Source: Alphaproteobacteria bacterium
GTDB taxonomy: Bacteria; Pseudomonadota; Alphaproteobacteria; JAQWUY01
NCBI GenBank assembly: GCA_029250225.1
Contig: JAQWUY010000011.1
Coordinates: forward strand, 1-59,273
Length of the DNA: 59,273 bases
Reading direction: 5' to 3'
This document shows, piece by piece, positions 34,707 through 45,864 of the stretch. Positions within the stretch are counted from its first letter, which is position 1. Each line of letters starts with the position of its first letter. The position numbers and the translations under genes were made by a program. The notes under the pieces are model-generated. The model did no database searches. It was given only the letters and a program-made list of their open reading frames with translations, and had not been told where the DNA came from.

Positions 34707-35954
34707 ATGAATAAATTAAAAAGAATAAAAGGCACTCACGATTTATTACAACAAGAAAAAGAAAAACATTTATATGTAGTTAATACTGCACGAAAAATCG
34801 CTAAGAAGTTTGGTTTTGATAGTATAGACACCCCTATTTTTGAATTTACTGATGTTTTTTCTCGCCCACTAGGTGAAACATCTGATGTAGTTACCAAAGA
34901 AATGTATACATTTGAAACTCGCGGTGGTGACTGTGTAACACTAAGACCAGAGGGAACAGCGGGGATTGTGCGTGCATTTATTGAAAATGGATTAACTCAA
35001 TCGGGACCTTTCAAAGTATTTTATGAAGGTGCAATGTTTCGTTATGAACGCCCACAAAAAGGTAGACAAAGGCAATTCCATCAATTTGGAGTTGAAGCCT
35101 TATCCTTACCTAAGCCGGCAACTGATGTTGAAATAATATCGATGGGTCAAATGATAATAGAAGAATTAGGTATTGCAAAAGATATTAAACTTCACATAAA
35201 TTCATTAGGTGACCAAGAAAGCCGTGATACCTATCGCAAAAAATTAATTTCATATTTATCTGACTTTAAAAATGATTTAAGTGAAGATAGTAAAAATAGA
35301 CTAGAAAAAAATCCTCTGCGAATATTGGATTCCAAAGATAAAAAAGATCGTGAAATATTAAAAAATGCTCCTATTTACTATGATTCATTAAATGATGTAT
35401 CAAAACAACATTTTGACGATGTTTTAAACGGGCTTGAAAAACTAAATATAAAATTCACTCTTGATAATAATATGGTTCGTGGTTTTGATTATTATTGCCA
35501 CACCGCATTTGAATTTATAACTAATTCATTAGGGGCGCAAGGAACTGTGCTAGGCGGTGGTAGATATGATAATTTATGCGAGATTATGGGTGGAAATCCA
35601 ACTTCTGGAATTGGTTTTGCCGGTGGAATTGAGCGACTAGCTCTTATGATTGATAATATTAGCGAAAAAAATAATAAAATTGTAGTTATTGGAATTGACG
35701 GGGAAACTCAAAAAATTGGCTTGAAAATTGCTAATGAATTGCGTTATAAAACAGACTTTGTAATTGAGACATTCTTTGGCAATCTAAAAAAAGGATTAAA
35801 GTATTCTGATAAGATTAACGCAAATACTGCTATAATTCTTGGTGAAGATGAATTAAGTAAAAAAACCGCAATTATTCGCGATCTTAAAAGTGGCGAGCAA
35901 CAAGAAATAAAATTTGATGAAATTTGTAATTATATAAAAAAGGGCAATAAATAA
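34707..35954 (+). CDS. hisS: Histidyl-tRNA synthetase
   Basis: Class II aminoacyl-tRNA synthetase. In 415 residues: the N-terminal KRIKGTHDLL opening, RPEGTAGIVRAF (motif 2 region preceded by VTLRPE), YEGAMFRYERPQKGRQRQFHQFGVE, the histidine A loop RGFDYYCHTAFEF, and GGGRYDNL with GIGFAGGIERL as motif 3. The anticodon-binding domain follows from about 325. It ends within one base of the prfA start. Cytoplasmic and complete. Confidence 0.96.
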   Translation: MNKLKRIKGTHDLLQQEKEKHLYVVNTARKIAKKFGFDSIDTPIFEFTDVFSRPLGETSDVVTKEMYTFETRGGDCVTLRPEGTAGIVRAFIENGLTQSGPFKVFYEGAMFRYERPQKGRQRQFHQFGVEALSLPKPATDVEIISMGQMIIEELGIAKDIKLHINSLGDQESRDTYRKKLISYLSDFKNDLSEDSKNRLEKNPLRILDSKDKKDREILKNAPIYYDSLNDVSKQHFDDVLNGLEKLNIKFTLDNNMVRGFDYYCHTAFEFITNSLGAQGTVLGGGRYDNLCEIMGGNPTSGIGFAGGIERLALMIDNISEKNNKIVVIGIDGETQKIGLKIANELRYKTDFVIETFFGNLKKGLKYSDKINANTAIILGEDELSKKTAIIRDLKSGEQQEIKFDEICNYIKKGNK

Positions 35955-37021
35955 TGGCGTGGGACGAGAAACTTAATGATGTTATAAAAAGAGCAGAATT
36001 AGTTAATAAAAAGCTAAGTAGTAGCGGATTATCTAGCCAAGAATTGCAAAAATATTCAAAAGAGTTTGGTACACTTGAACCTATGGTTAAAAAAATCAAG
36101 CAATATCAAGAATTAGTATCAAATATGAATAATGCAAAACAAATGCTTAATGATTCAGATCAAGAAATGGCTGAAATGGCTAAACAAGAATTTGAAACAG
36201 CTAAGCAAGAATTACCTGTTATTGAACAAGAATTAAAAATTATGATGTTACCAAAAGACGAAGCGGACGAAAGAAATGTTATTGTTGAAATTCGTGCAGG
36301 GGCTGGCGGTGATGAAGCTGGATTATTTGCAGGTGAAATACTAAGAATGTATCAAAGATACGCAGAAATTAAAGGTTGGAAAGCAGAAGTAATAGAATGC
36401 AATGAAACCGACCTAGGCGGATATAACTTTGTAAGTCTTGAAATTTCCGGTAATAATGTATACGGAACTATGAAATATGAATCTGGGGGGCATCGCGTTC
36501 AACGAATACCTGAAACAGAAAGCGGTGGACGAATTCACACATCGGCGGCAACTGTTGCTGTTTTACCAGAAGCAGAGGATGTGGATATTAATATCGACCC
36601 ATCAGACCTTCGTATCGATACATACCGCGCATCAGGAGCCGGTGGACAGCATGTAAACACAACAGATAGTGCCGTAAGAATAACACACACACCAACAGGT
36701 ATTGTTTCACAGTGTCAATCTGGGCGTTCACAGCACAAGAACAAAGACCAAGCTATGAAAATGTTAAAAACACTACTTTACGATGCGAAAAGACAAGAAG
36801 CGGAAAAAGAAATGTCTGATACTCGTAAGTCACAAGTTGGAAGTGGCGACCGCTCACAACGAATTAAAACATATAATTTTCCTGAACGCCGTGTAACCGA
36901 CCATAGAATAGGCTTAACATTGTACAAGCTTGACAAAATATTAAATGGCGAAATCGACGAGATGCTAGAAGCAATTATCACACATAAACAACTAGAACAG
37001 CTAGCACAATACGGAGAATAA
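35954..37021 (+). CDS. prfA: Peptide chain release factor 1
   Basis: Reads UAA and UAG stops. The 355-residue length is normal. The codon-reading PxT motif is PET at 186-188 in QRIPETESGG, and the peptidyl-transferase GGQ is at 230-232 in ASGAGGQHVNTTDSAVRITH. The start overlaps the hisS stop by one base. In most relatives prmC, the enzyme that methylates this GGQ glutamine, follows at once; here the next gene is a corrin gene after 129 bases. Confidence 0.96.
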   Translation: MAWDEKLNDVIKRAELVNKKLSSSGLSSQELQKYSKEFGTLEPMVKKIKQYQELVSNMNNAKQMLNDSDQEMAEMAKQEFETAKQELPVIEQELKIMMLPKDEADERNVIVEIRAGAGGDEAGLFAGEILRMYQRYAEIKGWKAEVIECNETDLGGYNFVSLEISGNNVYGTMKYESGGHRVQRIPETESGGRIHTSAATVAVLPEAEDVDINIDPSDLRIDTYRASGAGGQHVNTTDSAVRITHTPTGIVSQCQSGRSQHKNKDQAMKMLKTLLYDAKRQEAEKEMSDTRKSQVGSGDRSQRIKTYNFPERRVTDHRIGLTLYKLDKILNGEIDEMLEAIITHKQLEQLAQYGE

Positions 37022-37066
37022 TTTAAAATAATTAAACAGCGTAAAATATTATTTGATTAATACCCT

Positions 37067-37121
37067 ATAAATTGCTATTGTCTTGTAATTCGTACCTTTG
37101 TCAGGGCAAATAGCAATTTAT
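37067..37121 (+). promoter_or_regulatory. Leader hairpin upstream of the corrin operon
   Basis: ATAAATTGCTATT at 37067-37079 pairs perfectly with 37109-37121 around a 29-base loop that contains AGGG, able to pair with CCCT at 37063-37066. It lies 29 bases before the precorrin-8X methylmutase start. There is no T run, and I see no B12-box. It may be a leader control element or the processed end of the prfA transcript. Confidence 0.5.
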
Positions 37122-37150
37122 GTGAACCCAGAAAAATAACAGGGGCAAAT

Positions 37151-37807
37151 ATGGGGAAAGTTAAATTTAATTACATTAGTAAACCTGATGATATTTACAA
37201 GGCTTCTTTTGACGCTATAAAAAAAGAAGCTGACTTCTCACCACTAGACACTCAGCTACACCCTATTGCACTTAGAATGATACACGCAACAGCCAATCCG
37301 GATTTAATTAAAGATATTCGCTGTTCTAAATCCCCTATTCAATCAGGAATTAATGCATTAAATAACGGAGCAACTATATTTTGTGATTCAGAAATGGTAT
37401 CTCGCGGTATTGCAAAACGATTTTTACCTAAAAACAATCCTGTTATATGCACATTAAATGATCCAAAAACAACCGAATTTGCTAGAAAAAATAATACAAC
37501 TCGTTCCGCAGGAGCAGTAGAATTATGGCGTGAAAAAATCGGTGGTTCTATTGTTGTTGTTGGTAATGCTCCAACTACCCTATTTTATTTACTAGAAAAA
37601 ATACATAATGACAATTGGGATAAACCTGAACTTATAATCGGGTTGCCAATTGGTTATATTGGTGCTATTGAATCTAAACAAGCCTTGGTTAATTATGCCC
37701 AAGGAATAGAGTATATTACTTTAATAAGTAAACTTGGCGGTTCTTCTATGGCATCTAGTGTGATAAATGCAATTATTGGGTGTAACGAGGTGTCTTATAA
37801 TGTCTAA
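37151..37807 (+). CDS. cobH: Precorrin-8X methylmutase
   Basis: Moves the methyl group from C11 to C12, giving hydrogenobyrinic acid (or its cobalt form, where the gene is called cbiC). The 218-residue protein shows RMIHATANPD with catalytic-type His45, the TIFCDSEMVSRGI strand, a TRSAGAVELW segment, VVGNAPTTLFYLLE and IIGLPIGYIGAIESK. AGGGGC precedes the start. It heads a five-gene corrin run and its stop overlaps the cobL start by eight bases. Confidence 0.93.
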   Translation: MGKVKFNYISKPDDIYKASFDAIKKEADFSPLDTQLHPIALRMIHATANPDLIKDIRCSKSPIQSGINALNNGATIFCDSEMVSRGIAKRFLPKNNPVICTLNDPKTTEFARKNNTTRSAGAVELWREKIGGSIVVVGNAPTTLFYLLEKIHNDNWDKPELIIGLPIGYIGAIESKQALVNYAQGIEYITLISKLGGSSMASSVINAIIGCNEVSYNV

Positions 37808-38990
37808 GATAACGATTTTGGGTATAGGAGCTGATGGAATAAACAGCTTAAATAAAAAAGGCTTACAAGTATTAAAACAAGCAGATATTATATTTGGTTC
37901 AAATCGTCATCTTGAAATGATTGATACAAATTGTGAAACTGTTAATTGGGTGTCTCCGTTTTCCGATAATATAGAAATTATAAATAAACATTTTATTCAA
38001 AATAAAAATATTTTAATAGTTGCAACTGGTGATGTAAATTGGTTTGGAATTACAAATATAATTCGTAAAAATTTTGATAATGAAAAAATACAAATTATTA
38101 CCAATATTAGCTCTATCAGCCTTTCAGCTATAAAAATGGGTTGGCCGTTGCAAGATATAACCCCTATTACAATTCACGGTCGCGATATTAACAGTATTAT
38201 TACAAAAATATATGATAATGCAAAATTGATTATACTTAGTCATAACAAGCAATCGCCAATTGCTGTATGTGAAATATTACAAAAATTAAAATTCTCTGAT
38301 AGTGAAATTAGCATTTTGAATAATCTTGGACGAAATGATGAAACAATACAAAAATTCCAAGCAAATTCACCGCAAACAGCAAACAGCGATTTAAATTGCA
38401 TTGCTGTTGAATGTAAAAAAAATGATAATAATAATAGTCTTTGTGCTGGACTAGATGACCAAGATTTTATAAACGATGGACAATTAACAAAGCGTGAAGT
38501 AAGGGCAATAACAATATCATCTTTACAACCGTATCCTAATGCGGTTCTTTGGGATATTGGGGCTGGTAGTGGTTCTATTTCTGTTGAGTGGTGCCGTTTA
38601 GGTGGGAAATCTTGGGCTTTTGAAACCGATAAAACCCGTTGCGAAAATATAAAACAAAATTCTATCAATTTGGGTGTAAAACAAAAATTACAAGTTCACA
38701 ACTGTACGATAAATAAATATGGTTCTAAGTTACCAATTCCTGATTGTATATTTATCGGTGGTGGCTTAACCAATATTAATACAGAAGAATTGTACGAACA
38801 ACTAAAATTTGGCGGTCGTATGGTTATCAACAGTATTAGTATGCAAGGACAGGAAGTTATAAATAAAATGCATAAAAAATATGGTGGTGATATCATTCGA
38901 ATAAACATAGAAAGAAATACTAAAATAGGTAATTTCGATTCATTAAGGCCAATGATAAGTGTTATTCACTACACATTAAAAAAGGTTTGA
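37800..38990 (+). CDS. cobL: Precorrin-6Y C5,15-methyltransferase (decarboxylating), CbiE-CbiT
   Basis: Methylates C5 and C15 and decarboxylates the ring. I chose the ATG at 37800, which has GAGG upstream and begins SKITILGIGADG, the CbiE opening; a longer frame from 37767 is unlikely. Residues 1-200 form the CbiE methyltransferase and 215-396 the CbiT domain with TKREVRAI, LWDIGAGSGSISVEW and the later IFIGGGL motif. The fused form is typical of the alphaproteobacterial pathway. Tightly packed between cobH and cobI. Confidence 0.92.
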   Translation: MSKITILGIGADGINSLNKKGLQVLKQADIIFGSNRHLEMIDTNCETVNWVSPFSDNIEIINKHFIQNKNILIVATGDVNWFGITNIIRKNFDNEKIQIITNISSISLSAIKMGWPLQDITPITIHGRDINSIITKIYDNAKLIILSHNKQSPIAVCEILQKLKFSDSEISILNNLGRNDETIQKFQANSPQTANSDLNCIAVECKKNDNNNSLCAGLDDQDFINDGQLTKREVRAITISSLQPYPNAVLWDIGAGSGSISVEWCRLGGKSWAFETDKTRCENIKQNSINLGVKQKLQVHNCTINKYGSKLPIPDCIFIGGGLTNINTEELYEQLKFGGRMVINSISMQGQEVINKMHKKYGGDIIRINIERNTKIGNFDSLRPMISVIHYTLKKV

Positions 38991-38991
38991 T

Positions 38992-39684
38992 ATGTCAATA
39001 TTATATGGTGTTTCAGTTGGTACAGGTGATAAAGAATTAATTACATTAAAAGCACTTAATACTGTTAAAAATTGCGGGGTAATTGCTTATATTCATAGCC
39101 CTAACAAACAGTCAATGGCTCTTGAAATTATTGATGAATACATTACAGATGATAAAATTCACATTGCCATAGAAATGCCAATGGAAAAAAACACCAAAAA
39201 TGCAACATATGTATATGACAATGCTTGTAAAAAAATTAAACAACATTTGATTAAAGGAATTAGTGTAGCATTTTTATGTGAAGGTGATGCAATGTTTTAC
39301 GGTTCTTTTATGTATGTAAATGAAAGAATAAAACAACAACATAGTGTTAAAACTATATCTGGTATAAATTCTGTTTCTGCTTGCACAGCATCACTTGGTT
39401 TTGGCTTAGTGTCAAGAAATGAAATTTTATCTGTTATACCTGCTGGTGCAAACGAAGACAAAATAATAACTACTATAAAAAATTCTGATGCTATCGCTAT
39501 CTTAAAAACAAATAACAATATAAATAAAATAAAAAAAATATTAAGTGATTTAAATTTACTCAACAAGGCTATTTGCATTATAAATGCATCTTCAAAAGAC
39601 GAACAAATAATAGAATTAAACAAATTAAATAAAATCCCTTATTTTACGACTATTATTATAAAAAAGAACAAGGATTTTTATTAA
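38992..39684 (+). CDS. cobI: Precorrin-2 C20-methyltransferase
   Basis: Adds the C20 methyl to precorrin-2 (or its cobalt form, CbiL). The 230-residue SAM enzyme shows YGVSVGTGDKELITLKA at the N-terminus, IEMPM, the GDAMFYGSFMYV loop and SGINSVSACTASLG. It starts one base after cobL and its stop overlaps the next start by one base. The C-terminus is lysine-rich, typical of this genome. Confidence 0.92.
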   Translation: MSILYGVSVGTGDKELITLKALNTVKNCGVIAYIHSPNKQSMALEIIDEYITDDKIHIAIEMPMEKNTKNATYVYDNACKKIKQHLIKGISVAFLCEGDAMFYGSFMYVNERIKQQHSVKTISGINSVSACTASLGFGLVSRNEILSVIPAGANEDKIITTIKNSDAIAILKTNNNINKIKKILSDLNLLNKAICIINASSKDEQIIELNKLNKIPYFTTIIIKKNKDFY

Positions 39685-41462
39685 TGAATGTAACAATAAT
39701 ATGTATTACTGAAAACGGCTTAGAAGTAGCCGAAAAAATCAAAACCAAAATTGGCGGAAGTATACACGGTTTAAAATCGCGTGTAAAAACCGAAAATACA
39801 TTTACTAATACAACTAAATTTATAGGTGAACAATTTGCACAAGGAAATGCGGTTATTGGTATTTGTGCAACAGCTATAATAGTAAGAGCAATAGCACCGT
39901 ATATTGTTGGAAAAAGTATTGATGCCCCTGCAATTGCTATTTCTGAAAACGGTGATACTATCGTACCAATACTAAGTGGTCATTACGGAGGGTATGAATT
40001 ATCTAATAAAATTGGCGATATTTTAAATATTAAGCCCGCAATAACTAATGCAAGCGATAAAACACTAAAATTTTCTTTTGATAACTTACCACAAGGTTGG
40101 GAAATAAGTGATAGTAAACTTGTGAAGAAAATAACCGCTCAGTTATTACAAGATGGAAAAGTTAATTTAATCGATGATATCGGTGTTGATTTTCCCAATT
40201 CTGATATTTTTAAAGGTGGAAATCTTAGTGTGCGAATAACAAATAAAACCGGTTTTGAAAATGAAAATACACTGGTTATTTATCCACCTTCTACCATTTT
40301 AGGAATTGGCCTAGAAAGAAATGCTAGCGCTGATGGACTTATTAATTTTATAGATTCAAAACTTCAAGAATATAAAATAAGCCCAAAATCAATATCCGCA
40401 ATTACAAGCATAGATTTAAAAATTGATGAACCTGCATTAAAAGCATTATCAGGACATTATAACAAACAACTAAGATTTTTTAATGTTGATGAATTAAACA
40501 AATATAAGGATAATATACCAAACCCAAGTGAAGTTGTGTACAATGAAATTGGTTGTTACGGGGTATGTGAATCCTCTGTTCTAGCATCAAATGCTGAAAT
40601 AATTTTAGAAAAACAAAAATTTGACAAATATACGCTTGCCATTGGTAAACTCAAAAAACCCGAGATATTATCAAAAGGACGAACTTCCGGTAAATTATTC
40701 ATTGTTGGAATTGGTGCAGGCGATAATACTTGGCGTACTCCACAAGCAACAGAAGCAATAAAAAAATCGGAAGTAATAGTAGGTTATAAATTATATCTAG
40801 ATTTAATTGCTAATTTAATTCAAAACAAAGAAACTGCAAATAGTGAATTAGGCGAAGAAGAAGCAAGAGCAAAAAAAGCAATCGATATTGCAAGTACCGG
40901 TAAAAATGTATCATTAGTTTGTTCAGGTGATGCGGGGATATATGCCCTATCAACCCTAGTGTTTGAATTACTGCACCGCAACCCAAAAAACCGCTTGTGG
41001 CAAGGAATAGATATTGAAATAGTTCCAGGAATATCAGCATTTCAAGCTTGCTCAGCTAGGATTGGAGCACCGTTTAATCACGATTTTTGCCTAGTTAGTT
41101 TATCTGATTTATTAACACCAAGACAAGCAATATTAAATAGGCTTGAAACACTAGGGGCGGGTGACTTCGTCGTTGCATTTTACAATCCGCAATCAAAGCG
41201 AAGGCGTACATTATTGGAACAAGCAAAACAAACATTGTTGAATTACCGACCTAAACATACACCTGTAATAATAGGACGAAACCTAGGGCGAAATGACGAG
41301 CAAGTAAATATCACAACTCTTGAAAATTTTAAACCTGAAATGGTTGATATGTTATCATTGGTAGTTGTGGGAAACAGTGAAACAAAAGAGTTTGAATCAG
41401 CTGGTAGAAAGTTTATTTATACCCCAAGGGGATATGCTAAAAAAATGAATCAAAAAATATGA
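39684..41462 (+). CDS. cobJ: CbiG-CobJ fusion (precorrin-5A hydrolase plus C17-methyltransferase)
   Basis: A 592-residue bifunctional corrin protein. Residues 1-320 form CbiG, with CATAIIVRAIAPYIVGKSID (61-80), SGHYGGYELSNKI (98-110) and a CbiG/CobE C-terminal part at 205-320 (LGIGLERNASADGLI, NEIGCYGVCESS). Residues about 337-592 form the CobJ/CbiH methyltransferase: FIVGIGAGDNTWRTP, VVPGISAFQACSARIGAPFNHDF-like and AFYNPQSKRR. CbiG opens the lactone in the anaerobic route. The aerobic-route CobG or CobZ is not in the window. Overlaps cobI by one base. Confidence 0.92.
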   Translation: MNVTIICITENGLEVAEKIKTKIGGSIHGLKSRVKTENTFTNTTKFIGEQFAQGNAVIGICATAIIVRAIAPYIVGKSIDAPAIAISENGDTIVPILSGHYGGYELSNKIGDILNIKPAITNASDKTLKFSFDNLPQGWEISDSKLVKKITAQLLQDGKVNLIDDIGVDFPNSDIFKGGNLSVRITNKTGFENENTLVIYPPSTILGIGLERNASADGLINFIDSKLQEYKISPKSISAITSIDLKIDEPALKALSGHYNKQLRFFNVDELNKYKDNIPNPSEVVYNEIGCYGVCESSVLASNAEIILEKQKFDKYTLAIGKLKKPEILSKGRTSGKLFIVGIGAGDNTWRTPQATEAIKKSEVIVGYKLYLDLIANLIQNKETANSELGEEEARAKKAIDIASTGKNVSLVCSGDAGIYALSTLVFELLHRNPKNRLWQGIDIEIVPGISAFQACSARIGAPFNHDFCLVSLSDLLTPRQAILNRLETLGAGDFVVAFYNPQSKRRRTLLEQAKQTLLNYRPKHTPVIIGRNLGRNDEQVNITTLENFKPEMVDMLSLVVVGNSETKEFESAGRKFIYTPRGYAKKMNQKI

Positions 41463-41484
41463 ATAACAGAACAAGGATAAAAAA

Positions 41485-42255
41485 ATGACGGTATATTTTA
41501 TAGGAGCAGGCCCTGGTGCGCTTGATTTAATAACAGTGCGTGGATTAAAATTAATTCAAAAATGTGAAACTTGTCTTTATGCTGGTTCACTTGTTCCTAC
41601 TGGAATTATACAAGAATGTCCAGATGGTGCCAATATTATGGATACGGCATCTATGCACCTAGATGAAATTATATCACATATAAAAACCGCTCACGAACTA
41701 GGTCACGATATCGCAAGAATTCATTCAGGCGATCCATCAATATACGGTGCAACTAGCGAACAAATGCGTAAACTTGATAAAATTGGAATTGATTACGAGG
41801 TATGCCCTGGTGTTTCGGCCTATACAGCAATGGCGGCATCTATGAAAAAAGAATTAACATTGGCAGATGTATCGCAAACTGTAATAATAACAAGGACATC
41901 TGTTCGTTCAAGCGGTATGCCATCAGGCGAACAATTAACTCAACTAGCGAAATCAAGGGCAACTCTTGCTATACACTTATCGATTAATAATTTGAAAAAG
42001 ATTATTAAAGAATTAACACCATATTACGGCCAAGATTGCCCTGTTGCAGTTGGTTATCGTGTTTCTTGGGATGATGAAAAATTTATTTATGGAACATTAT
42101 CAGATATTCGCGAAAAAGTTAAAATAGCTAATTTTACAAGAACTGCTTTAATAATGGTTGGTAAAGTACTAGATACTAATGATTTTAACGATTCAAAATT
42201 ATATGATAAAAATCACTGGCATATTTGCCGTGACGAACAACAAAGCTCATATTAA
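41485..42255 (+). CDS. cobM: Precorrin-4 C11-methyltransferase
   Basis: Adds the C11 methyl. The 256-residue protein has FIGAGPGALDLITVRG, CLYAGSLVP, RIHSGDPSIYGATSEQMRKLD, VCPGVSAYTAMAAS and the GYRVSWDDEKFIYGTL region, all family motifs. It begins 22 bases after the fusion gene with AAGGAT upstream. It is the last of the five corrin genes; precorrin-6A reductase (cobK/cbiJ) is absent from the run. Confidence 0.94.
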   Translation: MTVYFIGAGPGALDLITVRGLKLIQKCETCLYAGSLVPTGIIQECPDGANIMDTASMHLDEIISHIKTAHELGHDIARIHSGDPSIYGATSEQMRKLDKIGIDYEVCPGVSAYTAMAASMKKELTLADVSQTVIITRTSVRSSGMPSGEQLTQLAKSRATLAIHLSINNLKKIIKELTPYYGQDCPVAVGYRVSWDDEKFIYGTLSDIREKVKIANFTRTALIMVGKVLDTNDFNDSKLYDKNHWHICRDEQQSSY

Positions 42256-43492: not shown

Positions 43493-45004
43493 CTATACTT
43501 TTTCTTTTATCAAATCTTTCATTAAAGAAATAATTATTAACCACATTATAAATAAAAATGGTAATGCAATTAAAATAGCCGCTTGTTGTAATGCACCTAA
43601 TCCGCCAACAGCAATTAATACTGATGCAACTAATGCTTCCAACACACCCCAAGAAATACGATGTTCTTTTGGTGGCTCAATATTACCGCCAGAAGAAAGA
43701 GTTGAAAGAACCAAGGTGCCGGAATCCGCAGATGTAACAAAATATGTTACAATTAGGATAGTTGCAAGCACAGATAATATCGTAGTAATAAATGCATTAT
43801 AATTCAAAGCTTCGAATGTAGCATATACGGCAACCTCATTACCTTGTGTTTTAACAGATTCTAAAATCCCGCCTTGTGTCATTTCAATCCATAATGCAGT
43901 ATTTCCAAAAATTGTTAACCATATGATTGAAATAAATGATGATACAAACAATACACCGAAAACAAATTCACCAATCGTACGACCGCGGGAAATTCGAGCA
44001 ATAAACATACCAACAAAAGGTGCCCAGCTTACCCACCAGCCCCAATAAAATATAGTCCACCAAGTTTGCCACTTACTAACACTTACATCTACTACTTCTA
44101 CCGACATTTGCAACACATTAACAACATAATGACCAATATTAGTGAAGAATGAACCAAGTAAATATACAGTTGGCCCTAGAATAAATAAAAGTAATAAAAT
44201 AGCAAAAGATAACCATAAATTCCATTCAGATAATATGCGAATACCTTTTTTAACACCAGTTACAGAAGAATAAATAGCAACAGCTGTAATTGCAAAAATT
44301 AATCCATAAACTGCTTCCTTAGTAGCAAAAAAATCTAATCCAGTTAAAATATGTAAACCCTTAGACATTTGACTCACACCAAAACCTAGCGAAGTAGCAA
44401 CACCGAAAATAGTTGCAAATATAGCTACTATATCAACGATTTTACCAATAAAGCCATTTGTTTGTTTGCCTAAAATAGGTGATAAAGTTGAACTAACAGT
44501 CAAAGGTAAATCTTTGCGGAAACAGAAATAAGCCATAGATAAACCTGTAATTACATATATCGCCCAAGGATGAAAAGCCCAATGGTATATAGTTATTTGC
44601 ATTGCCATTTGTGCTTTCTGCGCACTTGACATTTCATTAGAAACCCAAGGATTACCAGCATAATGCCAAATTGGTTCAGCAATAGACCAAAATATAAGTC
44701 CAATACCTAAACCAGCACCGAACAACATTGCAATCCAAGACCAGTAAGCAAATTCGGGTTTTTCACCGTCTTTACCTAGTGTTATCTTGCGGTATTTACT
44801 AACTGATAAAAAAATTGCAAAAATTAAGAAAAACGCTACTGACCATATATAAAACCAATTAAGATTTGTCCATAACCAAGTATTTGAATTTTTGAATATT
44901 TTTCCAGCACTATCGGGCATAAGACAAGCATATAATACAAAAAGTATTATAATAACTTTTGAGTAAATAGTAACTGGATTTTTATAAGAATCTAGAATTT
45001 TCAT
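43493..45004 (-). CDS. BCCT family transporter (betaine/choline/carnitine)
   Basis: A 503-residue inner-membrane symporter with about twelve helices. The family signature is strong: GAGLGIGLIFWSIAEPIWHY near residues 93-112, AFHPWAIYVITG, and the tryptophan-rich WWTIFYWGWWVSWAPFVGMFIARISRGRTI. The SADSG loop near residue 440 is typical. The substrate, a quaternary ammonium compound, and the driving ion cannot be assigned from sequence. The gene has its own ribosome site (GGAG). It lies between the asparaginase terminator and grpE. Confidence 0.93.
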   Translation of the reverse strand: MKILDSYKNPVTIYSKVIIILFVLYACLMPDSAGKIFKNSNTWLWTNLNWFYIWSVAFFLIFAIFLSVSKYRKITLGKDGEKPEFAYWSWIAMLFGAGLGIGLIFWSIAEPIWHYAGNPWVSNEMSSAQKAQMAMQITIYHWAFHPWAIYVITGLSMAYFCFRKDLPLTVSSTLSPILGKQTNGFIGKIVDIVAIFATIFGVATSLGFGVSQMSKGLHILTGLDFFATKEAVYGLIFAITAVAIYSSVTGVKKGIRILSEWNLWLSFAILLLLFILGPTVYLLGSFFTNIGHYVVNVLQMSVEVVDVSVSKWQTWWTIFYWGWWVSWAPFVGMFIARISRGRTIGEFVFGVLFVSSFISIIWLTIFGNTALWIEMTQGGILESVKTQGNEVAVYATFEALNYNAFITTILSVLATILIVTYFVTSADSGTLVLSTLSSGGNIEPPKEHRISWGVLEALVASVLIAVGGLGALQQAAILIALPFLFIMWLIIISLMKDLIKEKV

Positions 45005-45200
45005 ATTTATAAAATCTCCGTGTTTTTTTATATTTATAAGAAACTATTATGATGATTATAATAGTGATATCGTGCTATTTTAAATATTAAAAAATAATTA
45101 ATAAAAATTAGAATTAAATGCAAAAGCACTGATAATTTTATATTAGAAAAACAAATCTAAGTCAACGAATAAAAGAGATTTGGTTGGGTAAAAACATAAA

Positions 45201-45247
45201 TTAGTAAGCATAGTTAAGAAAAAAATACTTCCTATTATGCTTACTAA
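45201..45247 (-). terminator. Hairpin downstream of grpE
   Basis: TTAGTAAGCATA at 45201-45212 pairs perfectly with 45236-45247 around a 23-base loop. Read leftward it is followed by TTTATGTTTTT. The surrounding stretch 45005-45297 holds no gene that I can see; it carries this hairpin and, presumably, the BCCT promoter. Confidence 0.5.
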
Positions 45248-45297
45248 TGAATTATTTATTTAGATTTTTAATTGAGTTATTTTAAGTAAAATTAATT

Positions 45298-45864
45298 TTA
45301 CTCTTTATCATCACCTATACTTTTAGCAACATTTACCATTGCAGGCTTTAATAATCTGTCGTGTAAAGTATATCCTGCTGATAATACCTGTGCTATCTTA
45401 CCTTTTTCAACTTCATCAGTTTCAACTTCACCCATTGCTTGGTGTTTGTTATGATCAAAACTATCACCTACATTTGGTAAAATTTGCTTTATACCGTTTT
45501 TTTCGAATGCAGAATAAAAATCTTTCACAACCATATCCAACCCAAACGATAAATTTTTCAATGTTTGATTGTTTTCTTTGTCTTGCTCAGTAATTGACAT
45601 TATAGCCATTCGCAAATTATCAGCAACCGAGAATAAATCTCTTGCTAGTGTTGAAGCACCATATTTCCTTACATTAACAATTTCTTCGTCTGTTCTTTTA
45701 CGCATATTTTGCATATCAGCAATAGATAGCAATAAGTCTGACTTAGCTTTTTCTAGTTGTTGTTCAACTGTTAGTTTAACTGCTTTTTCTTTTTTATTAT
45801 TTTTTTTATTTTCATCAGAACTATCTTTATTTTTTACTTCTTCTTGTTTTGTTTTATCTGTCAT
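45298..45864 (-). CDS. grpE: GrpE nucleotide exchange factor
   Basis: Releases ADP from DnaK and acts as a thermosensor. The 188-residue protein starts with an acidic-basic disordered tail. A long helix (about 30-95) includes DMQNMRKRTDEEIVNVRKYG, and the beta wing follows with LDMVVKDFYSAFEKNGIKQILPNVGDSFDHNKHQAMGEV and GYTLHDRLLKPAMVNVAK. It is divergent from dnaK. A sigma32-like promoter lies upstream on its strand (45910-45937). Confidence 0.95.
   Translation of the reverse strand: MTDKTKQEEVKNKDSSDENKKNNKKEKAVKLTVEQQLEKAKSDLLLSIADMQNMRKRTDEEIVNVRKYGASTLARDLFSVADNLRMAIMSITEQDKENNQTLKNLSFGLDMVVKDFYSAFEKNGIKQILPNVGDSFDHNKHQAMGEVETDEVEKGKIAQVLSAGYTLHDRLLKPAMVNVAKSIGDDKE

Follow-up and report, generated by a model that had tools for sequence, protein, structure and literature searches.

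A stem-loop between prfA and a corrin operon is probably a prfA transcript end in an AT-rich alphaproteobacterial genome

The 129-nt gap that separates prfA from the first gene of a corrin operon (37022-37150 of the window, the whole 59,273-nt stretch of DNA analyzed here) encodes a stable stem-loop RNA, which is probably the 3′-end stem-loop of the prfA transcript. It would belong to the gene-end hairpins of this AT-rich genome, many of which do not carry a clean U-tract, and may terminate transcription weakly or incompletely, impede 3′ exonucleases, or do both. This reading starts from what was observed: a hairpin that folds better as + strand RNA and stands 44 nt from prfA, a tendency of such hairpins to occur where genes end, and neither a U-tract nor a known riboswitch at this place. 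We infer from this basis that RNA ends or is protected at the hairpin, and likewise how the cob genes are transcribed: by blocking 3′ exonucleases the stem-loop would give the prfA mRNA a stable end, and/or it would terminate transcription weakly or partially, and the corrin operon would be transcribed by read-through from prfA or from a promoter just upstream.

The stem-loop and its locus

Upstream of the gap lies prfA, the gene for peptide chain release factor 1 (35954-37021, + strand; TIGR00019, 509.8 bits against a cut-off of 423.25). The corrin operon opens with cobH, for precorrin-8X methylmutase (37151-37807, + strand), which matched NF006136 at 246.3 bits and so did not reach the family cut-off of 276, and continues on the same strand with cobL (CbiE-CbiT), cobI, a cbiG-cobJ fusion and cobM (37767-42255). 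In this remainder TIGR02467, TIGR02469, TIGR01467, TIGR01466 and TIGR01465 all scored above their own cut-offs, and the CbiG part of the fusion gave a match to NF004466 below the cut-off. The corrin pathway of the genome is mixed, since CobN, a cobaltochelatase subunit (contig C38, 65803-69525), is found alongside the CbiG-CobJ fusion of the window (within 37151-42255). Searches of the genome gave no match for CobG, only sub-cut-off matches for CobF, all of them at CobF paralogues, and a single sub-cut-off match for CobZ.

A first-pass annotation of this DNA had described a perfect 13-pair stem with a 29-base loop in the gap, and both the sequence and a script agree on the stem, the 5′ arm being ATAAATTGCTATT (37067-37079, + strand) and the 3′ arm AATAGCAATTTAT (37109-37121, + strand). 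The loop has the length that was given (37080-37108), but it is not open: GUCUUG/CAGGGC and UAA/UUG pairings extend the stem into a rod of 23 pairs, interrupted by two single-base bulges and closed by a terminal loop of 9 nt (37066-37122, 57 nt, + strand; computed fold −20.1 kcal/mol). Directly 3′ of the rod the + strand reads TGAACCCAG, with no U-tract. An alternative pairing of CCCT (37063-37066) with AGGG (37103-37106), also proposed earlier, is possible on paper, but the minimum-energy fold takes the AGGG up into the rod. The rod lies 44 nt 3′ of the prfA stop codon and ends 28 nt 5′ of the cobH ATG (37151), and is thus as close to the first start codon of the operon as had been remarked; AGGGG, the probable cobH ribosome-binding site (37141-37145, + strand), falls outside it.

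The energy of the rod compares with a mean of −6.8 kcal/mol among shuffles (z −6.0), and none of the 2000 dinucleotide shuffles of the 57 nt was as low. On the − strand the same region folds to only −13.5 kcal/mol, because four G-U pairs are lost. When the whole 149-nt region was folded the z score was −1.8, which indicates that there is nothing notable beyond the simple rod, and no multi-helix core.

That the hairpin is a functionless chance inverted repeat is improbable, although the AT-rich window has just 31% G+C and perfect stems of at least 11 pairs are numerous in the genome sample, where several fall within genes. Stems of at least 13 pairs arose in only 9 of 20,000 dinucleotide-preserving shuffles of the 129-nt gap, and strong hairpins cluster at gene ends in this genome, as set out below. 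Over the whole window, three stems of at least 13 pairs were seen against 0.2 expected, so that the prfA-cobH hairpin is real, though not unique in the window. The prfA-cobH gap holds the genome's only copy of the exact stem pattern, and a DNA search with that gap as query returned only the self match. No other perfect stem in the window is as long as the one at 30344-30409, in a convergent gap, which has 18 pairs around a 30-base loop, is not followed by a U-tract and is of the same class as the prfA-cobH hairpin. A further perfect 13-pair stem, with no U-tract at its foot, is found at 45200-45248, between the stop of a − strand open reading frame (ORF; 45298-45864) and the BCCT transporter gene downstream of it (43493-45004, − strand).

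Strong hairpins and gene 3′ ends in this genome

We compared the best hairpin of each intergenic gap of 50-500 nt according to the orientation of the flanking genes, in a sample of 434,851 of the 1,197,446 bases of the genome (36%, window included), with ORFs picked by length alone and two tRNA-bearing gaps skipped. Hairpins of −15 kcal/mol or lower were present in 8 of 13 convergent gaps and in 17 of 80 co-directional gaps, the prfA-cobH gap among them, but in a single one of the 43 divergent gaps; the divergent gaps differ in this from the convergent gaps with a Fisher p of 7e-6 and from the co-directional gaps with a p of 0.003. At −18 kcal/mol the counts were 6/13, 9/80 and 0/43 for convergent, co-directional and divergent gaps. 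Since no gene starts in a convergent gap and none ends in a divergent one, strong hairpins in this genome track the 3′ ends of genes. The prfA-cobH hairpin is itself strong, and prfA ends in its gap, which places it in the gene-end class so defined.

A classical intrinsic terminator combines a stable stem-loop soon past the stop codon with a U-tract. The former is found here (−20.1 kcal/mol, 44 nt from the prfA stop) and the latter is not, as there is one T in the 8 nt 3′ of the rod and no terminator-like site was called at this place; termination is therefore not predicted by the classical rule. Strong hairpins without TTTT near the 3′ foot nevertheless made up 7 of the 8 in convergent gaps and 7 of the 17 in co-directional gaps (0 of 1 in divergent gaps), and a missing U-tract is therefore not unusual in this genome; these counts include a co-directional hairpin from within the short cbtB gene and a U-poor call with a T-run within the outer fold.

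Some observations speak against the prfA 3′-end reading, the missing U-tract among them. The hairpin is closer to the cobH start (28 nt) than to the prfA stop (44 nt), and is hence one of the 5 co-directional strong hairpins that are not closer to the upstream stop, as the other 12 of the 17 are; and full termination at this point would leave scant room for a cob promoter. The closeness to cobH would suit a 5′ leader stem-loop of the cob mRNA, made from a promoter at 37023-37052 (TTAAAA, 18 nt, TATTAT) with a start near 37059, in which the rod would sit at the extreme 5′ end and shield the mRNA from decay without sensing any ligand. The promoter-like sequence matches at 9 of 12 positions and stands at a suitable distance, but promoter-like matches are not in excess (7, against 8.4 in shuffles), and only one of the 43 divergent gaps, which hold 5′ ends alone, has a strong hairpin. 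We regard this arrangement as possible but rather unlikely, and a 5′ leader role as less likely than a role at the prfA 3′ end.

B12 control and the corrin operon

The absence of a B12 box from the gap, pointed out in the first-pass annotation, held in every search that we made. No Rfam family reached its gathering score in the hairpin region, the cobalamin models of Rfam (RF00174 and others) were not among the matches up to E = 10 in 36900-37300, and a B12-box pattern with up to three mismatches gave six sites in the window and none in 37022-37150, the consensus having been loosened to fit the genome's own riboswitch copy. That copy, the single RF00174 cobalamin riboswitch found in the genome (contig C38, 4995-5152, − strand, 45.1 bits), was recovered with the same Rfam library and serves as a positive control; a TPP riboswitch was likewise detected in the genome. 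The cobalamin riboswitch immediately precedes the genes of a proposed cobalt transporter, cbtB (PF09489) and cbtA (PF09490), and the cbtBA leader contains an exact match to the B12-box pattern. B12 feedback thus appears to act on cobalt uptake and not on the corrin operon next to prfA.

An undescribed riboswitch or other sensing leader, which would act on the corrin operon through attenuation or by covering the ribosome site, is very improbable. The hairpin does precede a B12 biosynthesis operon, and the minimum-energy fold can pair CCC at 37127-37129 with the ribosome site and CCC at 37063-37065 with the GGG that follows the cobH ATG; but the masking depends on helices of three pairs, no terminator follows the rod, and the rod is the sole notable structure of the 149-nt region (z −1.8), with no multi-helix core. 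The accessibility of the cobH ribosome site stands at the 83rd percentile of 353 ORFs, and masking was rejected as the main mechanism because the site is more open than most. The stem is also single-copy in the genome, and the regions upstream of cobQ and cobN contained nothing resembling it; in the gap before cobQ there is a U-tailed hairpin just past the ribosomal L28 gene. It is exceedingly doubtful that the rod and the flanking CCC/GGG pairings together form a previously undescribed leader RNA of the B12 pathway through which a corrinoid, cobalt or a bound protein would switch either the translation of cobH or read-through.

A search for a second genome of the same order found none. CobH was identified in 137 of 385 sampled genomes of the class, which protein similarity marks as probably Alphaproteobacteria, with at most 51% identity to the product of this cobH among the matches listed. 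Scanning contigs with a CobH pattern gave 20 matches, none of which was confirmed as a close CobH, and in a further contig scan the best 80 of 594 matches had 40-47% identity, nothing being close. In 34 of 44 class loci, by our count, cobH follows another ORF on the same strand by no more than 45 nt or overlaps it, and there is therefore no homologous leader at those loci; this count relied on simple ORF picking, which may err in G+C-rich genomes, and one locus (L031) had an in-frame stop. Rfam matches near cobH were found at 0 of the 39 class loci scanned (about 1.5 kb on each side; L043-L047 lay outside the scan). In this sample, therefore, cobH usually has no riboswitch beside it, the scan reaching only to nearby operon starts.

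Of the two readings that the first-pass annotation had left side by side, an undescribed leader and the end of the prfA transcript, the latter is the better supported, since strong hairpins in this genome accompany the 3′ ends of genes and hardly ever fall in divergent gaps. The leader, on the other hand, gained no positive support, given the open ribosome site, the single copy of the stem, the lack of anything alike at cobQ and cobN, and the placement of the B12 switch elsewhere. The plainer of the two, a prfA transcript end, is thus the likely one.

If this is an ordinary gene-end hairpin, it matters little in itself. The locus does caution that the B12 operons of small genomes need not bear a riboswitch, the sole recognizable one here being on cobalt uptake. 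When relatives are missing, sorting the hairpins of a single genome by the orientation of the flanking genes is also a cheap test of gene-end against leader roles.

Comparison with known systems

The RF00174 cobalamin riboswitch occurs in the same genome and, upstream of cbtB-cbtA, is tied to B12 metabolism, but the prfA-cobH gap lacks its B12 box and multi-helix core and is not matched by its model. A likeness may also be sought in the puf operon of Rhodobacter capsulatus, where intercistronic stem-loops reportedly stabilize the upstream mRNA segment, an observation said to go back to Klug et al. in 1987. In both cases a hairpin stands between co-directional genes and read-through is possible, whereas no common transcript of prfA and the cob genes is known and any difference in decay between them would be hypothetical.

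The other comparison is with the U-poor hairpins of gene ends, or intrinsic terminators without a U-tract. In a survey of 1060 species, about half of 26,000 best candidate hairpins just past stop codons were without any U stretch, and approximately 90% of the hairpins identified were within 50 nt of the stop (PMC8355165). Compared with these hairpins, the prfA-cobH rod is long (57 nt) and A+T-rich, a co-directional gene follows close behind it, and its role in termination is putative; what it shares with them is a stable stem-loop no more than 50 nt from the stop codon that is not followed by a U-tract (PMC8355165).
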